Part shown: positions 34,236 through 43,214 of the stretch, piece after piece | Layout: every line of letters begins with the position of its first letter | Position numbering within the stretch: position 1 is the stretch's first letter | DNA from: a virus | IMG/VR virus record: IMGVR_UViG_3300017917_003089 | Coordinates: 1 to 53,183 of that record | Reading direction: 5' to 3' (one strand) | DNA length: 53,183 nucleotides | Position numbers and translations under genes: made by a program | Notes under the pieces: generated by a model | Database searches by the model: none | What the model saw: only the letters and a program-made list of their open reading frames with translations | What the model was told of the DNA's origin: nothing

Positions 34236-34253
34236 TCTTTTTATATTTTGTGT

Positions 34254-34793
34254 ATGACACATAAAGTTTACACAAAAAAAGGTGACGATGGTACAACAAG
34301 TTTACTCTCAGGTAAAAGAATTTCAAAAACATCATCGGAGATAAAATCTGTTGGAGTGTTAGATGAGTTAAATTCATTTATAGGATTTTTAAGAAGTGAA
34401 ACCAATATTGCTAGCGAATTCCTCGAAGACGTTCAATGGAATTTATTTAATGCAGGTTCAATAGTAATTAATGACAATGGTTTAAATCTTCCTGAAGTTA
34501 CAGAAAGTGATATTAAATTATTGGAAGATAATATGGATACGATGAGTAAGGAATTACCCGAACTTAAAAATTTTATATTACCTAAAGGTAATAGAGCGGT
34601 ATCGACGGCACATATTTGTAGAACAATTGCGAGAAGAGCAGAAATACAAGTTCTTGAGTGTCATAGTTTACAAAACTACACAAGATTAAATCCAATCACA
34701 GTTTATCTGAACAGGTTGAGTGATTACTTTTTTGTTCTTGCAAGATATATTGGACACAGAGAAGAGGTTGGGGAGACTATTTGGAAAAATTAA
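34254..34793 (+). CDS. PduO-type ATP:cob(I)alamin adenosyltransferase
   Basis: 179 residues. The N-terminal ATP-binding motif is YTKKGDDGTTSLLSGKRISK, followed by VGVLDELNSFIGFLR, FILPKGNRA, CRTIARRAEI and the C-terminal YLNRLSDYFFVLARY. This is the full PduO/PF01923 pattern. The enzyme transfers adenosyl from ATP to cobalamin, making coenzyme B12. In a phage it could feed a B12-dependent ribonucleotide reductase. I chose ATG 34254; an upstream TTG is less likely. The end overlaps the convergent DUF192 gene by 4 nt. Confidence 0.9.
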   Translation: MTHKVYTKKGDDGTTSLLSGKRISKTSSEIKSVGVLDELNSFIGFLRSETNIASEFLEDVQWNLFNAGSIVINDNGLNLPEVTESDIKLLEDNMDTMSKELPELKNFILPKGNRAVSTAHICRTIARRAEIQVLECHSLQNYTRLNPITVYLNRLSDYFFVLARYIGHREEVGETIWKN

Positions 34794-35150: not shown

Positions 35151-35576
35151 ATGGATAAAAAAAGATACGCAGGAGTTGTCGTTAAATGTAATAATAAAGT
35201 TCTTTTATGTAAAAGAAATAACCAAGGGTCTTTTCCTGGCATGTGGTCAATTCCTGCGGGAAAGATTGAAGATAGTGAAGAATCTAAAGATGCTGCAAAG
35301 AGAGAATTCTTTGAAGAAACCGCAGTAGATATTGATAACCAAGAATTAACTTTTATTGGATTACTCCCAAGACATACAAGGGACGGAAAGAAAGTTAAAG
35401 GTTTTATGTATGTGTATTTGTTAAATGTCGAAAGTGAAATTGAGCCTGATTTTGAAAATGCTATTGACGGAGAAGAGCATACCGAATGGAAATACTTTTC
35501 TCTTAATGAAATAGAAGAAACTAAAACAGGTACGTATCTTTATAGATTACTAGAAATAATTTTAGAAAAAATTTGA
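35151..35576 (+). CDS. Nudix hydrolase
   Basis: 141 residues with a Nudix box of the form Gx5Ex7REx2EE (GKIEDSEESKDAAKREFFEE near residue 40), in which the usual Gly after EE is Ala. The N-terminal strand holds VLLCKRNNQGSFPGMWSIP, typical of MutT-like proteins that hydrolyse nucleoside diphosphates linked to another group. The substrate cannot be read from sequence; options include oxidised dNTPs, ADP-ribose or NADH. It is followed by the gene-free RNA block. Confidence 0.88.
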   Translation: MDKKRYAGVVVKCNNKVLLCKRNNQGSFPGMWSIPAGKIEDSEESKDAAKREFFEETAVDIDNQELTFIGLLPRHTRDGKKVKGFMYVYLLNVESEIEPDFENAIDGEEHTEWKYFSLNEIEETKTGTYLYRLLEIILEKI

Positions 35577-35870: not shown

Positions 35871-35880
35871 TTTATTATAT

Positions 35881-35953
35881 GGCGGGCGGAGGGCAAGGTG
35901 TCCTGGGTGTCTCATAAGCACTTATAAGATTGGTTCAATTCCAAGGCGTCGCA
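35881..35953 (+). tRNA. Degenerate tRNA-Met(CAT)-like element
   Basis: A clover-leaf is partly visible: D-arm AGGG/TCCT, anticodon stem GGTGT/GCACT with loop CTCATAA (anticodon CAT at 35913-35915), and T-arm TTGG-TTCAATT-CCAA. The acceptor ends GGCGGGC and GCGTCGC pair poorly. The 3' end TCGCAACAATAAT resembles that of the following tRNA, suggesting duplication. It could be a pseudo-tRNA, a tRNA-like RNA domain or a chance fold. Confidence 0.4.
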
Positions 35954-35961
35954 ACAATAAT

Positions 35962-36069
35962 AGTGAGGTAGAGCAGCGGTAGCTCACAAGGCTCACGGTC
36001 TTTAAGTGACTAATTGTCAAGTAATACCGTATAACCTTGGGGTCGTAGGTTCGATTCCTACCCTCGCAA
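35962..36069 (+). tRNA. Initiator-like tRNA-Met(CAT) with 36-nt insertion in the anticodon loop
   Basis: Acceptor AGTGAGG/CCTCGCA with a mismatched A1-A72, TA at positions 8-9, D-arm GAGC-AGCGGTA-GCTC with an A11-T24 pair, anticodon stem CAAGG/CCTTG, variable GGGTC and T-arm GTAGG-TTCGATT-CCTAC are all canonical. Mismatched 1-72 and A11-T24 are initiator hallmarks. The anticodon loop reads CTCA, then 36 nt (35996-36031), then TAA; removing the insert gives CTCATAA, the initiator loop. The insert pairs internally (CGGT with ACCG, TGAC with GTCA). CCA is not encoded. Confidence 0.7.
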
Positions 36070-36106: not shown

Positions 36107-36138
36107 TTTGACAAATTAAAAAACTTGTCTTATCTTTG
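36107..36138 (+). promoter_or_regulatory. Bacteroidetes-type promoter upstream of large RNA
   Basis: TTTG (36107-36110), 20 nt, TATCTTTG (36131-36138): a full consensus match, placed 37 nt after the tRNA and before a 1.2-kb gene-free stretch. Confidence 0.8.
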
Positions 36139-36258
36139 TAAAACAAACGATGAAAGTCGTTTAGTTCTTTGAAGAGATTATCGTTTGAACCTGTCCCATT
36201 AAGAGTGGGGGGTCACTGAATCAAATGAAAATCAAATCAAAAAAAAGTTTCACAAAAA

Positions 36259-36290
36259 CTTGTTTGTTTCCCAAAACTTACTTACCTTTG
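36259..36290 (+). promoter_or_regulatory. Second promoter of large RNA
   Basis: CTTG (36259-36262, one base off TTTG), 20 nt, TACCTTTG (36283-36290). The predicted start near 36297 lies just before the 11-bp stem that opens the large RNA. Confidence 0.65.
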
Positions 36291-36296
36291 TGAAAC

Positions 36297-37287
36297 AAAT
36301 TGAGAAAAGGTTGGCTATGGCTATAAAATCGAGGTTTCCTTTTCTCAATTATCTAAAAAGTTCTTTGAATTAAAATATTTCTTAACTATGAGAGTACTGC
36401 TTGTTGAACCTTCGGGGAATACGGTATACGTCATACTCATAGGAAAGATATTGGGCGGTCTATAGTCCATAAAATAAACCATGAAAGTGGTATAAAGTGA
36501 CTCTAAATGTTTAAAATAGGGTTGCGGCTTCTGAAAGGGAGCTCGAGTAGAAAAGCAAGATATCATTTAACCTTTATTACCGAGGGTAACACTGTAGGGA
36601 ACGTGGTTGGGTGACCAAGCGATGTGGGTCGTTTGGTTGAGGAGGGAACTCCAATAAGAATAACTTGTAGAACTGTTGTAAGAAGTGTGGTCATCCAACC
36701 GTATAATTACGGAGTTCAATATTAAAGTAGACTTAAAACCGAAAGGTAAATGAGTTCGTACAGGTGGTGCTGTTGTTCTCCTTACTCTTCACCTACCAAG
36801 GTAGGAGTTATGAAGTAGACTTAAAATATGGAGGTCGGGAGACTTCAGAGAGTTGTTTAGTATTTCCTCGTTCAAAAGATGGGGGAGCTGGTCGCTGAAC
36901 CGCAACTTTCATAATCCACAAAACATTACTCTGTTAAAGTAAAACTAAACAAAGGAAAAGTGTTCAGCAGTCGTGGTAGACAGGTCACTACTTAGTCATG
37001 AGATGTTCATGGCCGTAAAGGGTCCCAAGCCCGATACGATTTTTTTGAAAGTTTTCTAGTCCCGCAAGGACGAGTCAGGGAGGCATCTTTGAAGAGCAAC
37101 AAGTAAAAATAGAGTATATTACGACTTAAGGATTGGTTAATCTAATTGACCGTGACTGAGAGGTACTATTCAAAAGATAGTGGAAATCGGAGTAAACAAT
37201 AATCTCCTGTAAAGTCTCTCACAAAAAGGTGTATTCTCAACCTATTTTGCCAATAACCCTGTCAGTTTCTACTGATGGGGTTTTTTA
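36297..37287 (+). ncRNA. Large structured non-coding RNA, about 1 kb (GOLLD/ROOL-like candidate)
   Basis: No convincing coding frame exists on either strand, and base composition is less AT-rich than the genes. It opens with an 11-bp stem TTGAGAAAAGG/CCTTTTCTCAA (36300-36310, 36338-36348) and ends in a terminator. Between are many hairpins with stable loops: CC-TTCG-GG (near 36409), ACCAT-GAAA-GTGGT (36479-36492), TTGG-GTGA-CCAA (near 36607), GGAG-GGAA-CTCC (36641-36652), ACC-GAAA-GGT (near 36738), CATGA/TCATG (near 36997). AAGTAGACTTAAAA occurs twice (near 36725 and 36813). Giant phage RNAs next to tRNAs are known (GOLLD, ROOL); membership is unproven. Confidence 0.7.
37257..37287 (+). terminator. 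Terminator of large RNA
   Basis: CCCTGTCAGT (37257-37266) pairs with ACTGATGGGG (37271-37280) over 10 bp, including two G-T pairs, around TTCT and is followed by six T residues. Confidence 0.85.
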
Positions 37288-37299
37288 TTTGAAAAATAT

Positions 37300-37330
37300 T
37301 TTGTAGAATTAAAAAATATACTTATCTTTG
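37300..37330 (+). promoter_or_regulatory. Bacteroidetes-type promoter
   Basis: TTTG (37300-37303), 19 nt, TATCTTTG (37323-37330), upstream of the gene at 37349. Full consensus match. Confidence 0.8.
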
Positions 37331-37348: not shown

Positions 37349-37630
37349 ATGAATATGAACCAACACAACATTAAAATCCAACATGAAACCTTCGGTATTT
37401 TATTGGACGAGACTTTTGTTAATGGGACACAGTTTAAATTATTTCTTAAAATGGTACAAGGTTGTATTGAACTTAAAAATGATTTAACGTTCTTTAACGG
37501 TACCGATTTTTTGATTCATGTACCATATAAACATTTAGTTGGTTCAATAATTACAACAGCTGTTGATAATTATTCATTAGCTGAACATTTAGTTAATAAA
37601 TCTAAAATTGAGGCATTAGAAACAAAATGA
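37349..37630 (+). CDS. Hypothetical protein, 93 aa
   Basis: Mixed alpha/beta protein, for example HNIKIQHETFGILLDETFVN, with no recognised family. ATG 37355 is an alternative start. It has its own host-type promoter just after the large RNA's terminator and overlaps the next gene by 4 nt (ATGA), so the pair forms a small early operon. Confidence 0.65.
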   Translation: MNMNQHNIKIQHETFGILLDETFVNGTQFKLFLKMVQGCIELKNDLTFFNGTDFLIHVPYKHLVGSIITTAVDNYSLAEHLVNKSKIEALETK

Positions 37631-41413: not shown

Positions 41414-41668
41414 ATGAAAAAAATACTCGTCGCGATTATCGCATTAACATTTGCAAGTTGTACAAGGAATCAAATGGCAAGACAATTTGGTGGCTCAGAA
41501 ACTATTGAATTAAAACCTGGAGAAAGACTTGTAAATCTAACTTGGAAAGAAACAAATTTGTGGATTTTGACAAAACAAGATACTACTAAACCAACCACAT
41601 ATTCCTTCAAGGAGAAATCCTCTTTTGGTATTGCTGAAGGTCAAGTTACAATTATTGAAACTAAATAA
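41414..41668 (+). CDS. Small lipoprotein
   Basis: 84 residues from ATG 41414. The signal sequence MKKILVAIIALTFASC ends in a lipobox-like FASC, so Cys16 should carry lipid. The mature part has a beta-rich pattern (ELKPGERLVNLTWKETNLWI). Small lipoproteins of this type recur in Bacteroidetes phages with unknown function; superinfection exclusion is one possibility. It starts 10 nt upstream of the NAD/ADP-ribose island and may share its transcript. Confidence 0.7.
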   Translation: MKKILVAIIALTFASCTRNQMARQFGGSETIELKPGERLVNLTWKETNLWILTKQDTTKPTTYSFKEKSSFGIAEGQVTIIETK

Positions 41669-41678
41669 ATTAAATTAT

Positions 41679-43214
41679 ATGAATCCACTATTAATGACTG
41701 ATGGGTACAAAACAGGCCATCACCAACAATATCCTAAAGGAACTACATTAGTATATTCAAACTTCACACCAAGAAGTAATAAATACGCACCTAAAGGATG
41801 TGATAAAGTAGTATCATTTGGTCAACAAATGATTATGAAACAAATTCACGAAGCGTTCAGAGATGAGTTCTTCTCTCGTCCTAAAGACGAGGTTTGTGGT
41901 GAAATGAAAAGTGAGCTTTCCCTCTATCTCAATACCGATTATGATGTAACTCACTTCGAGAAACTTCATGACTTGGGTTATTTACCAATCGCAGTTAAAG
42001 CGATTGAAGAAGGTACATTGGTTCCCATTAAGGTTCCTGTCCTTACAATCTATAACACTCACCCTGATTTCTATTGGGTAACAAACTATTTGGAAACTAT
42101 TATTTCAAATCTATTGTGGAAACCTATGACATCTGCAACAATTGCTCATACATACCGCAAGGTATTGACTAAATGGCAAGAAAAAACAGATGAGGAAAGG
42201 TCTTGGTTTATTGATTGGCAAGGACATGACTTTTCTATGAGAGGTATGGATAGTGTTGAGGCAACTATTGCTAGTGGATTGGGGCATCTTACATCATTTA
42301 GTGGGACTGATAGCTTACCTGCAATTGGCGGGGCAAGAAAGTTCTATGGTGAGGAAGGATTTGTTGGTGGTAGTGTTAATGCGACCGAACATAGTGTAAT
42401 GTGTGCTGGCGGTAAGGAAGATGAGATTGGTACATTCAGAAGATTATTAGAAACATATCCAACTGGTATCTTATCAGTTGTGTCAGATACTTGGGACTTA
42501 TGGAAGGTTTGTACTGAACACGTTGTTACGTTGAAAGATGAAATCATGGCTCGTGATGGTAAATTAGTTATTCGTCCTGATTCAGGTGACCCTGTTGATA
42601 TTCTTTGTGGTATTAATTCAAGACCATTATGGACTGATTCTGATGTAGAATCTAAAAAATCTGAACATCCTTCATATAAAGGTGTAATTGAATTACTTTG
42701 GGATGTATTCGGTGGAACTATTAACGAACAAGGATACAAAGTACTTGACCCGCACATTGGAGCAATTTATGGAGATTCAATTACAATCGATAGGGCCGAT
42801 GAGATTTGTAAGAGATTGGCAGAGAAAGGATTCGCATCAACAAACGTAGTTCTTGGTATCGGTTCATTTACATATCAATACAATACTCGTGATACATTTG
42901 GATTTGCTATGAAAGCAACCTATGTTGAATTAACACAAACAATTGGTGATAGTGGAATTGGAGAGACAGGTCTGATGGACAGGAAAGAAACGATAGGTAG
43001 AGAAATCTTCAAAGACCCAATTACAGATGATGGTACAAAGAAATCTGCAACTGGTTTATTATATGTTGGTAAAGGTGAAAAAAGTGGTGAATTGAAATTG
43101 TTTGACAAAGTTACTTGGGAAACCGAGGCAAAAGGACAATTACAAACCATTTACAAGGACGGTATGTTCTACAATCCAACAACATTAACTGAAATTCGTA
43201 ATCGTTTAAAATAA
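41679..43214 (+). CDS. nadV: NAMPT-like nicotinamide transferase (NadV / Namat-type)
   Basis: 511 residues. Motifs of nicotinamide phosphoribosyltransferase are present: MTDGYKTGHHQQYPKGT at the start, FSGTDSLPAIGGARKFYG, catalytic His near residue 238 in NATEHSVMCAGG, VIRPDSGDP and GDSITIDRADEI. NAMPT joins nicotinamide to PRPP. In the phage NARP1 pathway a homologue (Namat) instead joins nicotinamide to ADP-ribose pyrophosphate, making NAD+. The PRPP-synthetase-like gene follows after 5 nt, the gene pair expected for that pathway. Which substrate is used cannot be told from sequence. Confidence 0.9.
   Translation: MNPLLMTDGYKTGHHQQYPKGTTLVYSNFTPRSNKYAPKGCDKVVSFGQQMIMKQIHEAFRDEFFSRPKDEVCGEMKSELSLYLNTDYDVTHFEKLHDLGYLPIAVKAIEEGTLVPIKVPVLTIYNTHPDFYWVTNYLETIISNLLWKPMTSATIAHTYRKVLTKWQEKTDEERSWFIDWQGHDFSMRGMDSVEATIASGLGHLTSFSGTDSLPAIGGARKFYGEEGFVGGSVNATEHSVMCAGGKEDEIGTFRRLLETYPTGILSVVSDTWDLWKVCTEHVVTLKDEIMARDGKLVIRPDSGDPVDILCGINSRPLWTDSDVESKKSEHPSYKGVIELLWDVFGGTINEQGYKVLDPHIGAIYGDSITIDRADEICKRLAEKGFASTNVVLGIGSFTYQYNTRDTFGFAMKATYVELTQTIGDSGIGETGLMDRKETIGREIFKDPITDDGTKKSATGLLYVGKGEKSGELKLFDKVTWETEAKGQLQTIYKDGMFYNPTTLTEIRNRLK

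Follow-up and report, generated by a model that had tools for sequence, protein, structure and literature searches.

A GOLLD RNA of a probable Bacteroidota phage preceded by a boxA-like leader

GOLLD RNAs are among the largest RNA-only assemblies known. The GOLLD RNA env-38 has been solved as a 14-mer hollow cage (PMC12286853), and in Lactobacillus brevis, according to a statement in PMC7567579, a prophage GOLLD RNA accumulates during lytic growth and is dispensable for phage production. ROOL is likewise a large phage RNA found near tRNA genes. On the side of transcription, boxA has been shown to be necessary and sufficient for recruiting the antitermination complex in rRNA operons (PMC10250234), with GYTCTTTAANA as the gammaproteobacterial consensus (PMC5725501), and a boxA is also used by a phage in the nut sites of lambda.

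The window analyzed here is the complete IMG/VR virus record IMGVR_UViG_3300017917_003089 (53,183 nucleotides), a 53-kb virus contig which carries a GOLLD locus. An initial annotation had read about 1 kb of it (36297–37287) as a giant phage RNA of the GOLLD/ROOL type, either a member from a Bacteroidetes phage or a new class, and had proposed an Infernal search with the Rfam models. In a scan of the window with Rfam 15 the only large-RNA match was GOLLD (RF02032) at 36848–37243, which covers the whole model and scores more than twice the gathering score of 150 bits. At the gathering threshold ROOL matched nowhere in the window, and at E ≤ 1 it matched nowhere between 35400 and 37500; in this respect the RNA differs from ROOL, with which it shares its size, its phage origin and its neighborhood to tRNA genes. 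Hits to "sar" and "mir-4524" were weak, fell under their own cut-offs and were taken as chance. That the RNA is a new member of the known GOLLD family is well supported, and of the two options offered initially membership was the right one. The other traits of the family are present as well: the locus belongs to an IMG/VR virus, two tRNA-Met genes lie upstream, as expected from the adjacency to tRNA genes claimed before, and a less conserved separate 5′ domain stands ahead of the 3′ domain.

35878–35955, + strand: tRNA-Met(CAT) (ARAGORN)
35962–36069, + strand: second tRNA-Met(CAT), its anticodon loop interrupted by an inserted 35-nt hairpin at about 35996–36030 (Rfam tRNA, 46.7 bits, 39 unaligned positions)
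36447–36840, + strand: GOLLD 5′ domain (outside the Rfam model; profile matches in relatives, covariation)
36848–37243, + strand: GOLLD 3′ domain (Rfam RF02032, model 1–416 of 416, 314.8 bits, E 2.3e-89)

With env-38, as described in its paper (PMC12286853), the RNA has in common the full-model 3′ domain, the layout of a 5′ and a 3′ domain, a variable A/U-rich linker, the site downstream of tRNA-Met and, within the 5′ domain, a hairpin whose GAAA loop is conserved; set against that description, the window has in addition a boxA-like leader with tandem promoters. Taking everything jointly, we consider it quite probable that the 1-kb stretch encodes a phage GOLLD RNA, roughly 0.95–1.1 kb long, which has a boxA-type leader and forms a cage.

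The leader contains the following elements.

36131–36138, + strand: promoter 1, Bacteroidota-type −7 element TATCTTTG (sequence)
36164–36172, + strand: boxA-like element 1, GTTCTTTGA (9-mer enrichment)
36283–36290, + strand: promoter 2, TACCTTTG (sequence; transcript start expected at about 36297)
36298–36350, + strand: leader hairpin (13-bp stem, −19 kcal/mol, z −4.3; not conserved in all relatives)
36360–36368, + strand: boxA-like element 2, GTTCTTTGA (the same 9-mer is the most frequent one in 16S leaders of Bacteroidota)

Both TAnnTTTG promoters were found exactly where the initial annotation had seen them, and the opening stem which it had reported with 11 bp has 13 bp. The two GTTCTTTGA elements had been missed. 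One of them follows each promoter, and the leader of the window is made up of two modules, 36131–36172 and 36283–36368. When 9-mers were ranked without a word chosen in advance, GTTCTTTGA showed the largest sense excess upstream of GOLLD (19 of 24 non-redundant loci, 0 antisense), and the same word was also the top sense-excess 9-mer upstream of Bacteroidota 16S rRNA genes (36 of 85 non-redundant regions, 0 antisense), where the variant G[AT]TC[AT]TTGA occurs in 62 of the 85 regions. The promoter motif TAnnTTTG is present in 20/24 non-redundant GOLLD upstream regions and in 77/85 16S upstream regions. With redundant loci included, the 109 kb upstream of GOLLD contain 180 copies of GTTCTTTGA and the remainder of the same phage loci (3.7 million strand-bases) contains 74, an 83-fold difference in density. 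From shuffling, about one sequence with the word or fewer would be expected. The word is shared by the window and the majority of some 180 relatives; nearly every locus has it ahead of the 5′ domain, as a rule following a TAnnTTTG promoter. The exact word is absent in five of the 24 non-redundant loci, three of which have near variants. Promoters and leader elements are of the Bacteroidota type, in keeping with the Bacteroidetes phage suggested initially, and point to Bacteroidota as the probable host.

Upstream of Bacteroidota 16S rRNA GTTCTTTGA occupies the place of boxA. From this position and from the likeness to the gammaproteobacterial consensus we infer that the 16S element is probably boxA. 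Like boxA of rRNA operons (PMC10250234, PMC5725501), the phage elements consist of a host rRNA-leader word which is found on the sense strand only and lies in the leader, past the promoter and ahead of a long untranslated structured RNA. Unlike boxA of rRNA operons, they precede a phage gene without rRNA and constitute candidate Nus sites. The difference to the lambda nut sites is that the window has no conserved boxB and no identified N protein.

A rival explanation accepts the RNA as GOLLD and takes GTTCTTTGA as part of the RNA structure or as an extended phage promoter element rather than as boxA. In most loci the word is indeed found near either the promoter or the 5′ domain, and it is nearly invariant so that covariation cannot test its pairing. 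However, the spacing is variable, with 10–95 nt from GTTCTTTGA to the RNA and 13–89 nt from the promoter to GTTCTTTGA, while the order promoter, boxA, RNA is constant. Furthermore, the same word dominates the 16S leaders of the presumed hosts, and extended copies (GTTCTTTGA[ACG]ATATTG) outside GOLLD precede tRNA arrays and not GOLLD (7 of 7 copies versus 133 of 1968 random sites, 6.8%). We judge this explanation to be unlikely and prefer the reading as boxA. The extended boxA GTTCTTTGACATATTG is located before arrays of 2–11 tRNAs in the loci L367, L385, L406, L410, L416, L439, and L450.

In phages of Acinetobacter, Mycobacterium, and Streptococcus, whose GOLLDs were confirmed with the covariance model, simple pattern searches found no boxA-like word near the RNA. 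We therefore rejected boxA as a universal feature of GOLLD and regard it as a kind of leader which some phages with GOLLD use and not as a part of GOLLD. In phage DSS3_MAL1 (L464:591–3025) the boxA-like GCTCTTTGACAATTTGG lies about 130 nt ahead of a tRNA–GOLLD–tmRNA array, and a tRNA is found inside the GOLLD.

If the elements act as boxA, the two tandem host-type promoters would start the GOLLD transcript and each nascent leader would display boxA (GUUCUUUGA) as in Bacteroidota rRNA leaders. This boxA could recruit the host Nus factors (NusB–S10 and partners) to RNA polymerase, and the Nus-modified polymerase, like that on rRNA operons, would resist Rho and may aid the folding of this long RNA, which is untranslated. 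The transcript would end at the intrinsic terminator, and the folded RNA would, by homology to GOLLD env-38, assemble by loop–loop contacts into a hollow multimeric cage. Stable RNAs of these phages would thus be candidates for Nus-factor antitermination. The boxA leader suggests how phages may transcribe such a long untranslated RNA, and it would link the cage RNA to ribosome-type transcription; a boxA of the host rRNA type ahead of most GOLLDs in a large group offers a concrete and cheap test of the escape of a 1-kb untranslated RNA from Rho. In a search of openly accessible literature no paper was found to mention boxA together with GOLLD or ROOL, and a boxA-like leader of GOLLD appears to be unreported.

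The 3′ end of the transcript would be given by a terminator which had been noted before and which was confirmed.

37255–37282, + strand: intrinsic terminator (12-bp stem plus T-run, z −4.4)

The absence of a coding frame claimed initially was also borne out, as the sole open reading frame of at least 60 amino acids inside the stretch is antisense and codes for 73 amino acids (36345–36566), and no plausible frame spans the stretch. An open reading frame on the same strand starts at 37349, about 60 bases past the stretch, and it could be argued from this arrangement that the stretch, rather than being a separate RNA, belongs to this gene as a long regulatory leader. The terminator is, however, situated in between, another TATCTTTG is present at 37323–37330 right before the open reading frame, and homologous RNAs have other neighbors, for example tRNAs, which makes a regulatory leader very improbable.

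The approximately 400 nt upstream of the Rfam match form a conserved 5′ domain present in more than 180 phage loci. In a blastn comparison with named phage records 36447–36775 was found in two huge phages (635 and 642 kb) with 67–71% identity, and in both the GOLLD 3′ domain follows. For the collection of relatives a 16-nt motif of the 5′ domain was used, which retrieved 106 IMG/VR stretches; with iterated profiles 95 loci were then seen to have the 5′ domain and 79 to have the 3′ domain, and most of the loci with the 5′ domain only are cut by contig ends. A second collection made with a pattern of the 3′ domain yielded 104 GOLLD loci, 96 of which share the 5′ domain; the remaining eight are truncated within the 3′ domain. 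A new giant-RNA class unrelated to GOLLD, to which one might resort since no Rfam model covers the leader and the 5′ domain, which together make up over half of the transcript, is rejected as next to impossible in view of the match of the 3′ domain to the whole GOLLD model, the 5′ domain shared by the loci collected with the 3′ domain and the weak similarity of this 5′ domain to that of an Acinetobacter phage GOLLD. No homologues were found in the plasmids searched, a stricter pattern for the 5′ motif gave no GOLLD in sequenced bacterial genomes, and none was found in six Bacteroidota genomes, a number which says little.

The covariation analysis of homologous loci proposed initially was carried out on an alignment of 37 non-redundant sequences, of which the other 36 are 54–85% identical to the window. 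The RNAalifold consensus has 186 pairs, and compensatory changes on both sides were observed in 136 of them. Covariation calculated from the alignment only led to the same picture, with 39 of the 50 strongest column pairs falling within the RNAalifold structure. For validation we used 46 sequences which are less than 90% identical to any sequence used for prediction. In the 5′ domain 96.7% of the cells over 105 pairs and in the 3′ domain 92.4% of the cells over 79 pairs were standard pairs, values which possibly lean slightly towards the fixed alignment to which these sequences were added; in the control with slid partners 33–44% of the cells of the 46 sequences were paired. The earlier observation of a large structured RNA is confirmed, and the numerous small hairpins reported with it are present in the sequence. 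The validated alignment of the 5′ domain extends the covariation of GOLLD past the 3′ model of Rfam and can be laid directly on the cryo-EM structure.

36725–36738, + strand: AAGTAGACTTAAAA copy 1, 5′ strand of a helix (sequence, covariation)
36813–36826, + strand: AAGTAGACTTAAAA copy 2, 3′ strand of the same helix (sequence, covariation)

The initial annotation had described AAGTAGACTTAAAA as a 14-nt repeat used twice. The two copies exist, but the sequence is nearly self-complementary and alignment columns 337–345 pair with 485–493 with covariation. A functional direct repeat was therefore rejected; each copy supplies one strand of a single helix, and the relatives retain the pairing and not the repeat.

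Several contacts of longer range are predicted in addition.

36458–36463, + strand: strand of a 5′-domain pseudoknot, pairs with 36547–36552 (6 bp)
36547–36552, + strand: pseudoknot partner strand, pairs with 36458–36463
36623–36629, + strand: 5′-domain loop TGTGGGT, pairs with 36914–36920 in a 7-bp helix tying the 5′ and 3′ domains
36914–36920, + strand: ATCCACA at the start of the 3′-domain linker, partner of 36623–36629
36954–36955, + strand: junction GG, kisses the hairpin-loop CC at 37025–37026; corresponds to published bridge B7
36983–36988, + strand: 3′-domain pseudoknot strand GGTCAC, pairs with 37152–37157 (covariation)
37025–37026, + strand: loop CC, partner of 36954–36955
37064–37065, + strand: GC dinucleotide, self-complementary, in the loop equivalent to L21a of bridge B8 (covariation; B8 mapping by residue arithmetic)
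37152–37157, + strand: partner of 36983–36988 (covariation)

The pseudoknot of the 5′ domain is paired to 100% in the 46 independent sequences, and two of its positions are changed on both sides. The predicted 7-bp helix joining both domains, in which alignment columns 231–237 pair with 589–595, is strongly supported by covariation: it ranks second among all non-nested six-pair stacks, 99.4% of its cells are paired in the independent sequences with four positions changed on both sides, and in L166 and L223 UCCGAGU/AUUCGGA replaces UGUGGGU/AUCCACA. A single-sequence complementarity test for this helix was applied to distant GOLLDs, a test in which the window itself does not stand out. The available text of the env-38 cryo-EM paper (PMC12286853) calls the domains separate and describes no 5′–3′ helix, whereas in the window such a helix covaries.

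The B7-type kiss occurs as GG:CC, as UC:GA and in other compensated states and is paired to 100% in both the 37 and the 46 sequences. The L21a-type loop reads GC in 28 of 37 sequences and CG in nine, the latter being the huge-phage group; in the env-38 cage bridge B8 is likewise described to switch between GC and CG (PMC12286853). Hence the published inter-chain contacts of GOLLD, the L20–J13/15 kiss (B7) and the palindromic loop L21a (B8), are preserved, although covariation as such has no power to separate intra-chain from inter-chain contacts. Because these contacts are preserved, it is likely that the RNA of the window forms a multimeric hollow cage. Considering leader and cage together, we lean towards the view that Bacteroidota phages, and perhaps some alphaproteobacterial ones, place the host rRNA antitermination signal before GOLLD and tRNA arrays so that a host rRNA-type polymerase complex would transcribe and fold them. 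GOLLD cages would then be made by the machinery of ribosome production and could compete with it, and the 5′–3′ helix could serve as an extra lock between the cap and the ring of the cage.

The window also codes for the metabolic proteins nicotinamide phosphoribosyltransferase (41625–43214), a cobalamin adenosyltransferase (34248–34793) and a Nudix protein (35151–35576), and an SbcC-like protein is also among the genes of the record. Among the relatives, too, GOLLD is commonly preceded by a tRNA-Met(CAT). The second tRNA-Met gene has a normal loop, CTCATAA, when the insertion is removed, and the same tRNA is uninterrupted in many relatives (e.g., L027, L107, and L083). The 35-nt insertion might be either a very short intron or a change which has inactivated the tRNA. 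In the huge-phage-type GOLLD loci L002, L003, L010, L037, and L088 ARAGORN reports odd tRNAs, with undefined anticodons or predicted insertions of 28–41 nt.
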